From: Methylobacterium sp.
Lineage (GTDB): Bacteria; Pseudomonadota; Alphaproteobacteria; Rhizobiales; Beijerinckiaceae
Direction: 5' to 3'
DNA: 34,733 nt
Assembly: GCA_020252645.1 (NCBI GenBank)
Contig: JADCCN010000023.1
Coordinates: forward strand, 1-34,733
Below are positions 22,405 to 33,318 of this stretch, one piece after another. Position 1 is the stretch's first letter; each line of letters begins with the position of its first letter. A model generated the notes under the pieces. It saw nothing but the letters and a program-made list of their open reading frames with translations. It ran no database searches and was not told where the DNA came from. A program made the translations under genes and the position numbers.

Positions 22405-22434
22405 GGCATCCACTTCTTCGGAAAAATGTTCTCG
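22405..22434 (+). repeat. Fragment of second-hairpin element
   Basis: CGGCATCCACTTC, then TTCGGAAAAATGTTCTCG, matches the right half of the second hairpin as seen at 23520-23545 (CGGCATCCACT ... CGGAAAATGCTCG). The left arm is missing, so it looks like a truncated copy abutting the complete copy at 22434. Confidence 0.55.
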
Positions 22435-22535
22435 GGCATGATGTGTTCAGACGGAAGCACATCATGCTCTTATCTTATTATTATCGCATGCTTTTTTTGT
22501 GAAAAACCGGATTCCACTTTTTCACAGCATGCTCT
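22434..22535 (+). repeat. Two-hairpin palindromic element, copy 2
   Basis: Nearly identical to 2071-2171: about three substitutions and one extra T in the T run. Both hairpins and the TTATCTTATTATTATC linker are kept. It lies upstream of xthA, in the same orientation as copy 1, about 20.4 kb away. Confidence 0.85.
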
Positions 22536-22650
22536 GGGGCGCTCGCCATAGGCCGCGAAGAAGGATCGATCGGCTTGAAACATGCGGCTATCCCAAAGGC
22601 AATGCACACGCACTCTGCCCTTTGGCCGCAGGGGCTGCTACAGGAAGGCC

Positions 22651-23445
22651 ATGCTGATCGCGACCTTCAACGTCAACTCCATCCGCCAGCGGCTTGCGCA
22701 CCTCATGCGCTGGCTGAAATCCCGCGAGCCGGATGTCGTCTGCCTGCAGGAATTGAAATGCCTCGACGAGGCCTTCCCGCGCGAGGAGATCGAGGCCCTG
22801 GGCTACCGGGTCGAGACCTTCGGCCAGAAGACCTTCAACGGCGTGGCCATCCTCTCGCGCCATGGCGTGGAGATCGAGCATCGCGGTTTGCCGGGCTTCC
22901 CGGATGAACAGGCGCGCTACATCGAGGGCGTGGTGAGCCTGCCGCAAGGGCACCGATCCGGTGCGGTATTGCGCATTGCGGGTGTCTATTTCCCCAACGG
23001 CAACCCCGTGGGCAGCCCGAAATTCGAGTATAAGCGCGCCTTCATGGCCGCGCTCACGCGCCATGCCGAAGGCTTGCTCGCGCTCGAGGAGCCGCTGATC
23101 ATCGCGGGCGATTTCAACGTCATCCCCCAGCCGCAGGATGCGCGCTTTCCCGAGAACTGGCGCGGCGACGCGCTGTTCCAATCCGAATCGCGCGCCGATT
23201 TCCGCCGCCTCTGCGCTTTGGGCTTCACCGATGCCATCCGCGCGACCAGCGACGATGCCCGGCTCTATTCGTTCTGGGATTATCAGGCCGGCGCCTGGCC
23301 ACGCGACAACGGCATCCGCATCGATCACCTGCTGCTCTCGCCGCTGGCGGCCGACCGGCTTATGGAAGCGGGAATCGATCGGGAATTGCGCGCGGAGGAA
23401 AAACCCTCGGATCACGTGCCGGTCTGGTGCCGGCTCAGGGGTTAG
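22651..23445 (+). CDS. xthA: Exodeoxyribonuclease III (AP endonuclease)
   Basis: The 264-residue enzyme belongs to the Xth/ExoIII family of the endonuclease/exonuclease/phosphatase fold. It cleaves at abasic sites in base-excision repair and has 3'-5' exonuclease activity. Motifs: ATFNVNSIRQRL (substrate Asn), VVCLQELKC (metal-binding Glu), GVYFPNGNPVGSPKFEYK (active-site Tyr region), IIAGDFNVIPQPQD (catalytic Asp/Asn), and the C-terminal EKPSDHVPVWC with the catalytic Asp-His. The ATG at 22651 follows AGGAAGG; an open frame to 22582 is discounted. The stop TAG at 23443-23445 is at the edge of a palindromic element that begins TAGAGC, so the final residues may have been set by that element. 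Confidence 0.95.
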   Translation: MLIATFNVNSIRQRLAHLMRWLKSREPDVVCLQELKCLDEAFPREEIEALGYRVETFGQKTFNGVAILSRHGVEIEHRGLPGFPDEQARYIEGVVSLPQGHRSGAVLRIAGVYFPNGNPVGSPKFEYKRAFMAALTRHAEGLLALEEPLIIAGDFNVIPQPQDARFPENWRGDALFQSESRADFRRLCALGFTDAIRATSDDARLYSFWDYQAGAWPRDNGIRIDHLLLSPLAADRLMEAGIDRELRAEEKPSDHVPVWCRLRG

Positions 23446-23544
23446 AGCGGTCGATCTGATCCAATCCGATCGACCGCTCTCTTTTTTGTTATGGATCGCA
23501 GTTTCTTCGATCAACCGGCATCCACTGGATCGGAAAATGCTCGA
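23445..23544 (+). repeat. Two-hairpin palindromic element, tandem copy 3
   Basis: Hairpin 1 is the perfect 12-bp stem GAGCGGTCGATC / GATCGACCGCTC. The linker TCTTTTTTGTTAT gives it the form of an intrinsic terminator for xthA. Hairpin 2 pairs GCAGTTTC with GAAAATGC (one mismatch) and CGATC with GATCG around AACCGGCATCCACT. The next copy follows directly with a 100-bp period. Confidence 0.88.
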
Positions 23545-23644
23545 GAGCGGTCGATCTGATCCAATCCGATCGACCGCTCTCTTTTTTGTTATTGATCGCA
23601 TTTTCTTCGATCAACCGGTATCCACTGGATCGGAAAATGCTCTC
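23545..23644 (+). repeat. Two-hairpin palindromic element, tandem copy 4
   Basis: This repeats 23445-23544 with only a few substitutions (ATTGATCGCATTTTC for ATGGATCGCAGTTTC; CCGGTATCC for CCGGCATCC). The second hairpin is a perfect GCATTTTC / GAAAATGC stem here, restoring the pair that mismatches in copy 3. The tandem lies between the convergent xthA and exoR genes. Confidence 0.88.
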
Positions 23645-27269: not shown

Positions 27270-30212
27270 TCACCCCAGCCGCTTCAGCGCCTCGTCGATG
27301 CGCGCGATGCGGTTCTCGGCCTCGGCGAGGCGCTCGCGGTTCTCCTCGATCACCTCTTCGGGCGCGCGGGCCACGAAATCGGGGTTGTCGAGCTTGCGGC
27401 GCGTTCCGTCCATGTCCTTCATGAGCTTCTCGCGCTCGCCCGTCAGGCGCTTCTTCTCGGCGGCGAAATCGATGATCCCCGCGAGCGGCAGGCAGGCGAC
27501 CTGCCCCTGCACCACGATCTGCACGCTCTGCGCCGGCGCTTCATGCATGAACCGGATTTCCGAAACGCGCGCCATGCGGCGGAGCGCATCCTCGGCCGCC
27601 TTCGCGCGCGTCACGCCGGCCGCATCGGCCCCCACGAACACCAGCGGCGCCAATGTTGCGACCGGGACGTTCATCTCGGCGCGCGCGGAGCGGATTTCCG
27701 AGATGAGATCGACCATAAAGCCGATTTCCGCCTCGGCGGACGCATCCGCGAGGCCGATGGGCTGCGGCCACTGGCCGGTGCAGAGTTGCCCCCTCTTGTT
27801 TCCTGACGCGTTTTCTTCACGCGAACCGGTGCCCACTTCGCTTGAAAACGCTGTTGTCTCTCCAGCGAATTCACCATAGGCCGCGTTCAGCTCCTCGGTG
27901 ATGAAGGGCATGAACGGGTGAAGCATCGTCACCGTGCGATCCAGCACGAGGGCTACGGCCGCGCGCGTTTCATCCTTCGCATTCCATTGTTTGGACGCGT
28001 TTTCTTCACGCGAACCGGTGCCCACTTCGCTTGAAAACGCTATGTCGCTGTCCTCACCTTGCAGCACGGGCTTGGCGAGTTCGAGATACCAGTCGCAGAC
28101 GATGTTCCAGGTGAAGCGATAGGCCGAAAGCGCCGCTTCATTGAACTTGTAGCCCTCTATCCCTGCCTCGATTTCAGCGAGCGCACGATCCGCCTCGCCC
28201 ATGATCCAGCGATTGAGCGGCAGCTTCACGGCCTTGGGATCAAAGCCGGAAACCGCGCGGCACTCGTTCATTTCCGCGAAACGCGAGGCGTTCCAGAGCT
28301 TGGTGCAGAAGTTGCGATAGCCCTCGGCGGTCTTCACGCCCAACTTCGGGTCGCGCCCCTGCGCCGCGAGGCTCGCGAGCGTGAAGCGCAGGGCATCGGC
28401 CCCCAAAGCCTCGATCACCACCAGCGGATCGATCACATTGCCCACGGATTTGCTCATCTTCCGGCCCTTCTCGTCGCGCACGAGGCCGTGGAGATAGACG
28501 GTATGAAAGGGGGGCGCCTGATCGGTGGCGGCGGAGGCCATCATCATGCGCGCCACCCAGAAGAACAGGATGTCAAAGCCGGTGACCAGAGCCGAGCCGG
28601 GATAGTAGCGCGCGAGTTCGGGTGTCTCATCCGGCCAGCCCATGGTGGAGAACGGCCAGAGGGCGGAGGAGAACCAGGTATCGAGCACGTCGGGATCGCG
28701 CCAGATATAGATGTTATTGTCTGAAGTGTTCTGAGAAAGCTCTATTGCTGTATCCAAGCTTGAAGTGATTTTGACATCGCAGCCGTAAAACTCTTGGGCC
28801 TTTGATATTGCCTCCGGCTCACCAAGACAAATGAACCTGCCTTCACGGCGCATCGCCAACTTATCGGTGTTACCGACCTCGTATGCCAATCGCCCGTCCG
28901 CCAGGATATCCGGCCCATACCAGGCCGGGATCTGGTGCCCCCACCACAATTGCCGCGAGACGCACCAGGGCTCGATATTCTCCATCCAGCGGAAGAAATC
29001 CGCCTCGCGATTGGCGGGATGGATGCGAATTTGGCCCTTGCGCACCCATGCCATGGCCTTTTCGGCCAGGGGCTTCACATCGACATACCATTGATCGGTG
29101 AGCAGCGGCTCGATCACCACGCCGGAGCGATCACCATGCGGCACCATATGCGTATGCGGCTCGATTTTCGCGAGAAGCTGCAAGGCATCGAGATCGGCCA
29201 CGACGCGCTTGCGGCATTCATAGCGGTCGAGCCCGCGATAGGCCTCGGGCATATGCGGCTCATCCACCATATGCGCGGTTGGCGTCATCAGGTTGATGAG
29301 CGGCACATTGTGGCGTTTGGCGACCTGATAATCGTTGAAATCATGCGCGGCGGTGATTTTCACCGCGCCGGTGCCCTTTTCCGGGTCGGCATATTCATCC
29401 GCGATCACCGGAATGAGGCGATTGACCAGGGGCAGCATCACCTGTTTCCCAATCATCCAGCCGAGGCGCTCATTTTCCGGGTGAACCGCCACGGCGCCAT
29501 CTCCCAGCATGGTTTCGGGGCGCGTGGTGGCAATGGTGATGAAGCTGCGCTCATCCTCGGGGTTGAATTCCACACCCGCGAGCGGATAGCGGAAATACCA
29601 CATATGCCCCTTCACTTCCCGCTGCTCGACCTCGAGATCGGAGATCGCGGTCAGGAGCTTGGGGTCCCAGTTCACGAGGCGCTTCGCCTTGTAGAGCAAA
29701 TCCTTCTCACGCAGGGTCACGAAGAATTGCAGCACGGCGCGCTGCATCTGGCCTTTCTCGCCCTCCTCGCGGTTGCCCATCGTGAAGCGCTCGCGGCTCC
29801 AATCGCAGGAGGCCCCGAGGCGCTTCAACTGGTGGATGATGGTGCCGCCGCTCTCTTCCTTCCACGACCAGACTTCATCCAGGAACCGGTCGCGGCCCAT
29901 GCTGCGGCGATCGGGTTTGCCCTCGGCTGCCAGCTTGCGCTCCACCACCATCTGGGTAGCGATGCCGGCATGGTCGGTGCCCGGCTGCCAGAGCACGTCT
30001 CGGCCCTTCATGCGCCAGTAGCGGCAGAGGATATCCTGCAAGGTGTTGTTGAGCGCGTGCCCCATATGCAGCGAGCCGGTGACGTTCGGCGGCGGAATGA
30101 CGATGGTATAGGGCTCGGCCTCGATGCGACCGGCCTTGAAGGCTCCGGCCATTTCCCATGCGGCGCTCCAGCGGGCCTCGATGCGCGCGGGGTCGAAGGT
30201 CTTGTCCATCAT
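27270..30212 (-). CDS. valS: Valyl-tRNA synthetase with two in-frame palindromic-element insertions
   Basis: The class Ia synthetase charges tRNA-Val. Taking MMDKTFDP as start gives 980 residues (ATG at 30209 or GTG at 30230 are alternatives; no strong ribosome-binding site). Motifs: PPPNVTGSLHMGHALNN (HIGH box), the CP1 editing domain (TTRPETMLGD, GTGAVKITAAHDFNDY), VLDTWFSSALWPFSTMGW, GRKMSKSVGN (KMSKS box), the anticodon-binding helical domain and a C-terminal coiled coil (KKRLTGEREKLMK ... RIARIDEALKRL). Odd features: residues 725-740 and 788-803 are the identical peptide AFSSEVGTGSREENAS, encoded by two identical 48-bp palindromic elements that relatives should lack; and residues about 448-502 are encoded by an AT-richer stretch. 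The frame stays open throughout, so the enzyme is probably functional. Confidence 0.97.
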   Translation of the reverse strand: MMDKTFDPARIEARWSAAWEMAGAFKAGRIEAEPYTIVIPPPNVTGSLHMGHALNNTLQDILCRYWRMKGRDVLWQPGTDHAGIATQMVVERKLAAEGKPDRRSMGRDRFLDEVWSWKEESGGTIIHQLKRLGASCDWSRERFTMGNREEGEKGQMQRAVLQFFVTLREKDLLYKAKRLVNWDPKLLTAISDLEVEQREVKGHMWYFRYPLAGVEFNPEDERSFITIATTRPETMLGDGAVAVHPENERLGWMIGKQVMLPLVNRLIPVIADEYADPEKGTGAVKITAAHDFNDYQVAKRHNVPLINLMTPTAHMVDEPHMPEAYRGLDRYECRKRVVADLDALQLLAKIEPHTHMVPHGDRSGVVIEPLLTDQWYVDVKPLAEKAMAWVRKGQIRIHPANREADFFRWMENIEPWCVSRQLWWGHQIPAWYGPDILADGRLAYEVGNTDKLAMRREGRFICLGEPEAISKAQEFYGCDVKITSSLDTAIELSQNTSDNNIYIWRDPDVLDTWFSSALWPFSTMGWPDETPELARYYPGSALVTGFDILFFWVARMMMASAATDQAPPFHTVYLHGLVRDEKGRKMSKSVGNVIDPLVVIEALGADALRFTLASLAAQGRDPKLGVKTAEGYRNFCTKLWNASRFAEMNECRAVSGFDPKAVKLPLNRWIMGEADRALAEIEAGIEGYKFNEAALSAYRFTWNIVCDWYLELAKPVLQGEDSDIAFSSEVGTGSREENASKQWNAKDETRAAVALVLDRTVTMLHPFMPFITEELNAAYGEFAGETTAFSSEVGTGSREENASGNKRGQLCTGQWPQPIGLADASAEAEIGFMVDLISEIRSARAEMNVPVATLAPLVFVGADAAGVTRAKAAEDALRRMARVSEIRFMHEAPAQSVQIVVQGQVACLPLAGIIDFAAEKKRLTGEREKLMKDMDGTRRKLDNPDFVARAPEEVIEENRERLAEAENRIARIDEALKRLG
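27805..27852 (-). repeat. In-frame palindromic element in valS, copy A
   Basis: This 48-bp element is identical to 27994-28041. Arms GCGTTTTC / GAAAACGC and GCGAA / TTCGC enclose ACCGGTGCCCAC, the family's conserved second-hairpin core. It encodes residues 788-803 of ValS, in the anticodon-binding domain. On the minus strand it is followed by AGGAAACAAG. Confidence 0.9.
27994..28041 (-). repeat. In-frame palindromic element in valS, copy B
   Basis: Identical 48-bp copy, 189 bp (63 codons) from copy A, in the same orientation and frame. It encodes residues 725-740 of ValS between the LQGED segment and the KDETRAAV helix. On the minus strand it is followed by CAAACAATGG; the shared AAACAA after both copies suggests the element is slightly longer than 48 bp. 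Confidence 0.9.
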
Positions 30213-30257
30213 TTCAGCGAAATCCGTCACTCACTCGAACGGGAGAGTCCCGCACGA

Positions 30258-30285: not shown

Positions 30286-30340
30286 GAACCGTATCTTTGG
30301 CATTAACGCGATGTATCCATGCGTCAAGCGCCAGGAATGA

Positions 30341-30656
30341 GTTGCCGCGCCATGCGCGGCTTTCGTCCCCTGGCTGATCGCTGGCCCGAAAACCGGCAAC
30401 CGCTTTTCGGCAGCAATCAGTTGCCGTGCCATGCGCGGCTTTCGTCCCGTGGCTGATCGCTGGCCCGAAAACCGGCAACCACTTTTCGGCAGCAATCAGT
30501 TGCCGTGCCATGCGCGGCTTTCGTCCCCTGGCTGATCGCTGGCCCGAAAACCGGCAACCACTTTTCGGCAGCAATCAGTTGCCGTGCCATGCGCGGCTTT
30601 CGTCCCCTGGCTGATCGCTGGCCCGAAAACCGGCAACCGCTTTTCGGCGGCAATCA
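30341..30656. repeat. Four tandem 79-bp repeats after popZ
   Basis: Units begin at 30341, 30420, 30499 and 30578, exactly 79 bp apart, with only a few substitutions. Each holds GTTGCCG-GCCATGCGCGGC at its start and the hairpin CCGAAAA / TTTTCGG around CCGGCAACC(A/G)C, a relative of the element family core. The array stops at the popZ stop codon; the next bases (30657 on, GTTGCCGCGCG) are the last popZ codons and match the beginning of the unit. The rest of 30213-30653 has no gene. Confidence 0.92.
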
Positions 30657-31259
30657 GTTGCCGCGCGCCGCGCGCTCGATCTCGGCCTTCACCAGGCGCT
30701 CGACAATGTCCGGCAGATGGCTGTCCATCCACTCGCGAAGCAAGGGGCGCAGCATTTCGACGACCAGGTCCTCGAGGCTGCGGCCCGGCGCCGGCATGGG
30801 CGTGCCGCGCGAGAGTTGCGCGAAGGCATTGGCCACAAGGCCGCTCGTTTCGCGACCAAGGATATGCCCCTCCATCGCCGCCGGCGTCGCCAAGGGCACC
30901 GGGGCTGGCGGCGGCGCGACCATCACGGGCGCGGGCTGCGGCTGGCCGGAGAAATCTTGCCGCTCGACCATGGCATCCTCGGCCTCGCCGACCATCATCT
31001 CATCCTCATGCGGCTCATCGGCAAGAGCCGAGACCCCGGCAAGATCAAGCACGTCGGCATCCAGATCCTCATCGGGCTCAATGATGACAGGTTCGGGCGC
31101 CGGGAGCGGTGGAAGCGGAGCAGCCGCAGGGGTGGTGTCCTTCTTCCTGCCGAGGCTGTCATCCGCGATGATGCGCCGGATGGAGGCAAGGATTTCCTCC
31201 ATGGACGGCTCGGAACCCGGCTGCTGTGGCTGGAAGGCGGCGGCGGCATTATTGGCCAT
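30654..31259 (-). CDS. popZ: PopZ family (DUF2497) polar organising protein
   Basis: The 201-residue acidic, mostly disordered protein has the PopZ family plan. The N-terminal short helix SMEEILASIRRIIADD binds client proteins. A long Pro/Glu/Asp-rich spacer follows (about 40-140). The C-terminal oligomerisation region is SLEDLVVEMLRPLLREWMDSHLPDIVERLVKAEIERAAR. PopZ forms a condensate at the cell pole that tethers ParB-parS and cell-cycle regulators in alphaproteobacteria. It lies between tolC and valS, the order I recall in Hyphomicrobiales. Its stop codon coincides with the edge of a 79-bp tandem array, and its last four codons are similar to the repeat unit. Confidence 0.88.
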   Translation of the reverse strand: MANNAAAAFQPQQPGSEPSMEEILASIRRIIADDSLGRKKDTTPAAAPLPPLPAPEPVIIEPDEDLDADVLDLAGVSALADEPHEDEMMVGEAEDAMVERQDFSGQPQPAPVMVAPPPAPVPLATPAAMEGHILGRETSGLVANAFAQLSRGTPMPAPGRSLEDLVVEMLRPLLREWMDSHLPDIVERLVKAEIERAARGN

Positions 31260-33027: not shown

Positions 33028-33130
33028 TAGAGCACGTCTCGTTTTGATGGAGTCAAAACCGTGCTCTATCTTATTGTTTTGTCGTATATTGTTACGCAAA
33101 ACCGGTATCCACTTTTGCAAGAGCATGCTC
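33028..33130 (+). repeat. Two-hairpin palindromic element, copy 5
   Basis: It begins TAGAGCAC. Hairpin 1 pairs GAGCAC with GTGCTC and GTTTTGA with TCAAAAC around TGGAG. The linker is TATCTTATTGTTTTGTC. Hairpin 2 pairs GCAAAA with TTTTGC around CCGGTATCCAC and ends GAGCATGCTC. Arms differ from copies 1-4 while the architecture and loop core are kept. Confidence 0.82.
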
Positions 33131-33318
33131 GAGAGCGAAATTCGATCTGAACCAATCAGATCGATCACTCTCTGTTTTTGTGATTGATCGCATTTTCAAG
33201 CGAAGCATGTCCCTCGCGAAGGCGGGGGTGGATGCCGGTTCGCGTTACGACAATGCGATCAAGCAAGGGAATAGAACATCCGATCTCATTCGGTCAGATC
33301 GGAAAATACTCTCGTGAA
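33131..33318 (+). repeat. Composite two-hairpin element, copy 6
   Basis: Hairpin 1 pairs GAGAG with CTCTC and CGATCTGA with TCAGATCG. The linker is TGTTTTTGTGATT. The second part is longer than usual: GATCGCAT (33185-33192) pairs with ATGCGATC (33253-33260) around 60 bp that include AAGCGAAG and GATGCCGGTTCGCG. The right edge, CAGATCGGAAAATACTCTCG, resembles the right edge of copies 3 and 4. It looks like one element inserted in or recombined with another. Confidence 0.65.

Follow-up and report, generated by a model that had tools for sequence, protein, structure and literature searches.

Two palindromic inserts in valS

The 34,733-nucleotide stretch analysed here (the window: positions 1 to 34,733 of contig JADCCN010000023.1 of a Methylobacterium sp., assembly GCA_020252645.1) carries valS, the gene of valyl-tRNA synthetase (ValRS), which contains two in-frame copies of a short palindromic element. 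The original prediction placed two identical 48-bp elements inside valS on the same strand and in the same frame, and coordinates, translation and a shuffle control bear this out: the sequence is present at 27805-27852 and 27994-28041, the two copies are 100% identical and lie 189 bp (63 codons) apart, and a 44-base pattern from the element (up to three mismatches) is matched twice in the window but not once in 100 shuffles. Each copy encodes AFSSEVGTGSREENAS, which occupies residues 731-746 (insert 1) and 794-809 (insert 2) of an open reading frame (ORF) of 986 codons. The inserts had been recognised correctly, but the residue numbers first given to them (725-740 and 788-803) were six too low, which fits a start at a downstream ATG. 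The features are as follows.

27270..30230, minus strand: valS, valyl-tRNA synthetase, host of both inserts (ORF of 986 codons, GTG start; Pfam tRNA-synt_1, Anticodon_1 and Val_tRNA-synt_C)
27994..28041, minus strand: insert 1, 48-bp palindromic element, residues 731-746, common to the sister species G010 (pattern match, alignment)
27805..27852, minus strand: insert 2, identical 48-bp palindromic element, residues 794-809 (pattern match, alignment)
28033..28040, minus strand: left outer arm of insert 1, GCGTTTTC, pairing with 27997-28004 (RNA fold, arm covariation)
27997..28004, minus strand: right outer arm of insert 1, GAAAACGC (arm covariation, RNA fold)
28010..28030, minus strand: inner stem of insert 1, GCGAA / TTCGC, with the apical GTGGNNNCCGG, the conserved core of the family (column conservation over 120 copies, fold)
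27844..27851, minus strand: left outer arm of insert 2, GCGTTTTC, pairing with 27808-27815 (arm covariation, fold)
27808..27815, minus strand: right outer arm of insert 2, GAAAACGC (arm covariation, fold)
27821..27841, minus strand: inner stem and apical core of insert 2 (column conservation, fold)

On the valS transcript strand, the copy at 27805-27852 folds with -20.7 kcal/mol (z -3.1) into a nested hairpin, in which an 8-bp outer and a 5-bp inner stem enclose an 11-nt apical region; insert 1 is identical in sequence. No Rfam family matches positions 27700-28150 up to an E value of 1.

The host gene is intact. The valS of 27270-30230 encodes the sole full-length ValRS of the genome, a draft of 25 contigs and 3.05 Mb; five other matches are partial and weaker (27-39% identity, E values of at least 6.5e-16). 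A broken valS with an intact copy elsewhere was looked for and is ruled out, and the ValRS is presumably translated with both peptides and functional. Both inserts fall within the Pfam PF08264 (Anticodon_1) match, which spans residues 673-858. In an AlphaFold model built from 61 aligned ValRS sequences (mean predicted local distance difference test score, pLDDT, 86; predicted template modelling score 0.83), insert 1 falls in the stretch from helix 696-724 to helix 751-770 and insert 2 in that from helix 775-788 to helix 830-852, with short helical turns at 741-745 and 804-807. The segments with a pLDDT below 50 are 1-6, 453-458, 730-737, 744-747 and 794-811, and the inserts account for most of these residues; such low confidence is expected, because only one or two of the aligned sequences have residues there. 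Thus, the earlier placement of the sites in loops of the anticodon-binding domain agrees with the Pfam span and with the model, which supports loop insertions in the anticodon-binding helix bundle that are predicted to be disordered.

A further variable region of the same protein lies beside the catalytic core. The ValRS segment from PAWY to DxDVLDTWF (residues 439-511, window positions approx. 28698-28916) is a hypervariable block: it has 31 residues and is GC-rich in 10 members of the genus, and it has 68-101 residues in this genome (G000), in G010 and in the relatives G004, G005, G006 and G007. The long segments are AT-richer (GC 0.47-0.52 versus 0.63-0.66 for the rest) and by eye show little mutual similarity.

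Presence and absence in relatives show that both valS elements are insertions. The 110 aligned ValRS sequences comprise this one, 80 from a named genome collection, in which the nearest sequence belongs to a Beijerinckiaceae metagenome-assembled genome with 61% identity, and 29 from genomes of relatives, which are also drafts. Insert 1 occurs in two of them (this genome and the sister species G010) and insert 2 in one (this genome), and the respective columns are empty in 107 and 109 of the 110; the third sequence with residues at site 1, L136 of the species G008, owes its seven residues to an unrelated extension. The proposed alignment with related ValRS sequences therefore found the insert residues absent from nearly all of them, with no unrelated genus carrying the peptide at both sites, and a conserved ValRS feature is ruled out by the empty columns. 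In the nucleotide alignment with five close relatives the empty sites are clean: the net insertion at site 1 is 63 nt relative to four of them, G010 being the filled fifth, and at site 2 it is 60 nt relative to all five, G010 included. Both values are slightly above the 48 bp described. An assembly artefact caused by a repeat is hardly credible for insert 2; the genome is a 25-contig draft and the two copies are identical, but insert 2 has unique junctions on both sides, keeps the frame and differs from insert 1 in net length, and the same phenomenon is seen in several other assemblies.

The same comparison orders the two events. The ValRS of G010 is 89% identical to that of this genome and has insert 1 and an empty site 2; thus, insert 1 would have entered valS before the two species split, unless it was exchanged between them. 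Barring a loss in G010, insert 2 is probably the younger. The suggestion that the identity of the copies reflects recent insertion therefore appears to hold for insert 2 only, and not for insert 1, which is shared at this distance. Between the two species, none of the 51 nt of insert 1 has changed, as against 39 of 315 aligned nt in the 60 codons flanking it on each side (Fisher p 0.003).

With regard to its source, insert 2 shares its full element sequence with insert 1 and with none else of the 59 copies collected from this genome (defined below), so it is probably derived from insert 1, by local transposition or conversion. A tentative alternative is that only insert 1 transposed and that insert 2 is its local duplication, a slippage product or the outcome of gene conversion. 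The identity over 48 bp at a distance of 189 bp is in line with this, as are the absence of the exact 44-mer from every other copy in the genome and the sharing of the left arm with one other copy only (L159). However, the flanks differ on both sides: the element's AGCG is preceded by ACAT in one case and ACAAC in the other, and its GCGTC is followed by CAAACAATGG and AGGAAACAAG. As identity ends at the element borders, no flanking valS DNA was duplicated, and this speaks against a plain segmental duplication. Moreover, site 2 of G010 is a clean empty site, and the same pair of arms is also found in G008.

The element family and its other hosts

The 22-nt core of the element (up to three mismatches) has 57 matches in the 3.05-Mb genome, whereas the reversed control has none. 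The 59 copies from this genome used below were defined by up to three mismatches to a slightly looser core in the fetched loci; two of them (L016 and L027) are outside the list of 57, and that of L027 may be a chance match. A second set was taken from G008 with up to two mismatches, which yielded 61 copies in fetched loci out of 65 places matched. Over these 120 copies, the outer arms pair by Watson-Crick rules at 87.5% of positions, versus 72.4% when arms are permuted (maximum of 2000 permutations, 75.6%). Among the 53 copies with a left arm other than GCATTTTC, the pairing is 78.5% versus 53.5% (maximum 61.3%), and 36 of the 53 pair at seven or eight of the eight positions. The permutation ignores the common descent of the copies, yet complementary arm pairs of many different sequences are present. 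The apex AAGTGGNNNCCGGTT hardly varies, in part as a consequence of its inclusion in the search pattern. The outer arms are therefore complementary and covarying terminal inverted repeats, as expected of a miniature inverted-repeat transposable element (MITE). Filled and empty pgi sites suggest a 57-nt unit with a 6-nt duplication (AL...AL codons), the sole hint of a target-site duplication.

Arms and ends differ between copies inside genes and elsewhere. The commonest arm, GCATTTTC, is found in none of the five genic and 38 of the 54 other copies of this genome (p 0.004), and in one of nine genic versus 28 of 52 other copies of G008 (p 0.028; the genic set here is nine genes, with soxD, L325 and xdhC counted among the others). 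GTC comes after the right arm in 15 of the 24 genic rows listed and in two of the 54 other copies of this genome.

The hairpin arms and ACCGG core were also predicted to be common to the palindromic repeats of the window, and core matches and window repeats bear this out for the ACCGG core. Just upstream of valS (30332-30663) are 4.2 tandem copies of a 79-bp unit that contains CCCGAAAACCGGCAACCACTTTTCGG, that is, the AACCGGNNNCCACTT core, with other arms. Palindromic repeats with the ACCGG core and different inner arms lie at 23444-23642, 2061-2213, 22424-22540 and 33089-33136, one of them forming a tandem pair of 100 bp. A wider superfamily sharing this core seems to include the element. In G008, five tandem copies of period 60, all open in the same frame as the valS copies, form part of an ORF without a Pfam match (G008:C21:106106-106367; L269, L298).

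The genome-wide search that had been called for, counting copies inside coding regions, showed that valS is not unique. By six-frame inspection and Pfam, five of the 59 copies lie inside housekeeping genes: two in valS and one each in cysS, serS and pgi of the same genome (gene names here and below come from Pfam or NCBIfam where cited, and otherwise from reading of the sequence). The last three have net insertions of 20 or 21 residues. The cysS insert occurs in two of 17 genomes of the genus (this one and G010), the pgi insert in three of 17 (this one, G010 and, as a changed copy differing at 5 of 17 residues, G007), and the serS insert in three of 16 (this one, G010 and G008; G004 gave no match). 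G000, G010 and G008, the last a more distant species, carry the serS insert at one and the same site (L195, L196, L293), but G007, G006, G003 and G005 lack it; loss, segment transfer and a hot spot are possible explanations.

Further hosts came from a 20-residue peptide probe in the frame of the valS copies, run against 17 genomes of the genus, and from fetched loci. In other species these added glyS, hemH, thyA, argC, ampD, a PALP enzyme, a thiamine pyrophosphate (TPP) enzyme, a short-chain dehydrogenase/reductase (SDR) and others, whereas topA of G008 was reached through loci collected with the DNA pattern. A Pfam domain runs across the element in both valS sites, cysS and pgi of this genome, in hemH, the PALP enzyme, the TPP enzyme, argC, ampD and topA of G008, and in thyA and the SDR of other species. 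In glyS of G014 and G009 the element stands between two domains, and the hemH ORFs of G016 and G008, which are 87% identical, have it at the same site. NCBIfam models span it in glcE and in the lutB gene (LdhH model), both below the cut-off. In thyA of G010 and G007 (L282, L283), the insert follows shortly after the PCHC motif (by reading), within a Pfam match covering 13-301.

Several cases are weaker. The element lies in the last 20 residues of soxD (L308, G008), after the domain; in a Y-polymerase-like gene of G008 (L325), only weak matches flank it on either side; in rsmB (L275) and queG (L257) it precedes the matched region and in uvrB (L258) it follows it; and a livM-like gene (L278) may start downstream of it. 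Copies also supply the last residues of a MiaA-like protein (by reading) in L015 of this genome and of a similar-ended ORF in L277 of G007. ORFs spanning intergenic copies were screened as possible genes. All 41 distinct ORFs of this genome were rejected, the Pfam domain being absent or only downstream of the element; of 35 in G008, topA was kept and the xdhC-like gene stands as an exception (see below), and the others were rejected on the same grounds.

Outside the genus, the probe found matches in 4 of 44 relatives (E up to 1) and, across the family, in 40 of 298 genomes and 11 of 43 genera (E up to 0.05). Among 10 large-frame matches, L333 and L334 put the peptide at the start of an ORF resembling an ATP-binding cassette ATPase (by reading), and inspection by eye suggests that the other eight are intergenic or doubtful; only within the genus were conserved proteins seen with internal insertions, the other genera being sampled at these 10 loci. 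One genome of another genus (G233) gave 256 first-look candidates, those listed lying mostly in short open frames, and is perhaps very rich in this repeat.

Frame, strand and origin of the genic copies

The copies of this genome and of G008 were scored in a frame census by a small gene caller, which is based on a codon model and was trained with four genes from each genome. In this genome (n=59), five copies lie inside genes, all in the frame that reads SSEV, 50 are intergenic and four are at gene edges. In G008 (n=61), 12 are inside called genes (11 in the SSEV frame, among them the weaker cases soxD and L325, and one opposite), 48 are intergenic and one is at an edge. As serS is common to both, there are 16 distinct genic sites, of which 15 are read as SSEV (SSEV..GSRE). 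Other frames were available: over 48 nt in the 120 copies, the SSEV frame is open in 116 and three others in 118, 114 and 105. With about four open frames, and equal use assumed, 15 of 16 in one frame has a p value of approx. 1e-8; of the two frames open on the strand used, the SSEV one is read in 15 of 15 (p 3e-5). The probe-found cases glyS, SDR, gcvPB, rsmB, thyA, uvrB and queG of sister genomes were left out of this statistic, since a probe in the SSEV frame is biased by frame and its cases enter only where the DNA pattern also found them in G008. Pfam scans of the other ORFs spanning copies in the two genomes revealed no domain on both sides of the element in another frame. The same-strand frame choice is better explained by protein-level selection.

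The preferred explanation, to which we assign a probability of about 0.8, is that the inserts are copies of a short non-autonomous mobile palindrome and that selection keeps the harmless in-frame ones. An element of approx. 57 nt with a nested hairpin around the GTGGNNNCCGG apex would have multiplied in several species of the genus. Most copies would settle between genes, and genic ones would survive if the frame is kept and the protein site is tolerant. The survivors would be read in one orientation and frame, with one exception in 16, giving a mild hydrophilic peptide, A-x-S-S-E-V-x-x-G-S-R-E-x-x-A.

Two other accounts of the genic copies are much less probable. That the peptide was recruited for a function (regulation or binding by synthetases), with positive selection retaining it instead of the protein just tolerating it, appears improbable: synthetases do recur as hosts (valS twice, cysS and serS in this genome, glyS in G014 and G009), an enrichment noticed post hoc, and insert 1 is unchanged between the sister species, but the remaining hosts (pgi, hemH, thyA, argC, topA, ampD) are unrelated, the inserts are patchy among close relatives, the pgi insert has diverged in G007, and the insert segments are of low confidence in the ValRS model. 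It is less probable still that the mRNA loses the element, or that ribosomes bypass it, which would leave the protein without the peptide and make the frame incidental. The strong hairpin and its conserved structure would suit such a process, but an element so treated need be neither a multiple of three nor in one frame, whereas the net insertions are 60 and 63 nt in valS and, for cysS, serS and pgi, 20 or 21 residues, and SSEV is the reading at 15 of the 16 sites. By comparison, neighbouring copies outside called genes (L149, L009) are spaced 61 or 62 nt apart, unlike the genic multiples of three.

Several observations weigh against a selected mobile palindrome. A target-site duplication is suggested at pgi only, and none is visible by eye in valS. 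The Y1 transposase (PF01797) was found in none of 17 genomes of the genus, with 5 of 14 control genomes positive; other transposase families were not searched. The unchanged state of insert 1 is no rule: relative to flanks, the changes between genomes sharing other inserts are 2/51 versus 38/351 nt in serS and 0/51 versus 2/360 in pgi, and the cysS insert (1/51) diverges about like its flanks (4/360). The xdhC-like gene of G008 (L302) reads the element in reverse, as ASREPVPTSLA, and an NCBIfam match spans it; this copy is a real exception, so the single frame is not absolute. Furthermore, copies between co-directional genes are also strand-biased (34 versus 14, p 0.0055), and the genic bias (15:1) is not clearly stronger (p 0.089). 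Since intergenic copies share it, the genic strand bias need not come from protein-level selection and may arise from insertion or transcript-level effects. As a separate observation, the copy in the xdhC-like gene is the sole reverse genic copy found, and the same ORF ends with a second copy, in the SSEV frame, at its C-terminus.

A possible, though doubtful, extension of the mobile-palindrome explanation is that the element is a protein-compatible invader, its hairpin so built that one strand and frame yields a benign peptide, with the subfamily lacking the GCATTTTC arm preferentially genic. Because complementarity of the arms has to be maintained, one end of the added peptide would then co-evolve with the other (F..EN, K..DF, N..EF, T..DV), and selection on DNA structure would write paired amino-acid changes into essential enzymes.

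Comparison with known systems

Through these insertions, natural experiments are available for synthetases, thymidylate synthase, ferrochelatase and topoisomerase. In two genomes the copies were counted without regard to frame, sister species can be compared at filled and empty sites, and one gene was hit twice, apparently not at the same time. Two questions become testable: by what means such elements move when no transposase is known for them, and whether the host proteins merely tolerate the peptides. The kind of insertion is already known. Among the matches listed in searches of the open literature (that is, outside subscription papers), none was a paper on this element, as judged by its DNA and peptide strings; nor did any, supplements such as the intragenic-REP list of PMC3733652 lying outside the search, describe in-frame palindromes in this order.

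Rickettsia palindromic elements (RPEs) had been named as the precedent. RPE-1 and other RPEs (Ogata et al. 2000) are described as palindromes of 105-146 bp that lie between genes and in frame inside conserved protein genes at solvent-exposed positions, have counterparts in Wolbachia, and in a tested host, Gmk, leave the protein translated and active with changed substrate affinity (PMC2229807, PMC3767692). The valS element likewise lies between genes and in frame in conserved genes (valS twice, cysS, serS, pgi), with empty sites in relatives. By description it is set apart: it has a different core and measures 48 bp, or approx. 57 with its tails, with net insertions of 60-63 nt. RPEs thus stand as a precedent for in-frame palindromes, but not as the only one, since intragenic repetitive extragenic palindromes (REPs) in free-living bacteria have been published (PMC3733652).

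Other families share single traits with the element. ERIC/RU-1, YPAL/RU-2, RU-3 and Correia 107 are described as mobile hairpins of 103-168 bp that become fused in frame to ORFs (Delihas; PMC2229807, PMC2759123); these enterobacterial and Neisseria MITEs use more than one frame and lie mainly outside well-conserved proteins, whereas the present element is mostly internal in conserved enzymes and nearly confined to one frame. Cod-2 is reported as a small repeat family inside genes that is read in different frames (PMC2267715). Br-REP1 and Br-REP2 of Bradyrhizobium, a related alphaproteobacterial genus, are palindromes from intergenic regions and 3' untranslated regions (PMC5082802), and their printed consensus sequences differ from this element.

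The closest known case is that of the intragenic GTAG and CGTC REPs, which are reported to occur in ORFs of many bacteria, free-living ones included, and inside tRNA synthetases of X. oryzae, E. lithoralis and S. alaskensis, with some ORFs hit twice (Di Nocera et al. 2013, PMC3733652). The same source describes CGTC REPs as predominant in alphaproteobacteria, without a known transposase, and as built of an 8-9 bp stem, a 4-5 nt loop and a CGTC end. Unlike this single stem, the valS element nests a 5-bp stem within an 8-bp one, has a conserved GTGGNNNCCGG apex and carries GTC mostly at genic copies. Unlike GTAG REPs with their REP-associated tyrosine transposase (RAYT), it occurs in a genus in which 17 genomes gave no PF01797 match, and a REP mobilised by RAYT is rejected on that ground. 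Conserved genes are filled in some close relatives and empty in others, which places the element in the general kind of protein-coding palindromic repeats. What is new is the element family, the near-single coding frame and the record of filled and empty sites, which together extend this kind to an alphaproteobacterial genus with genomes of 2.4-4.2 Mb.

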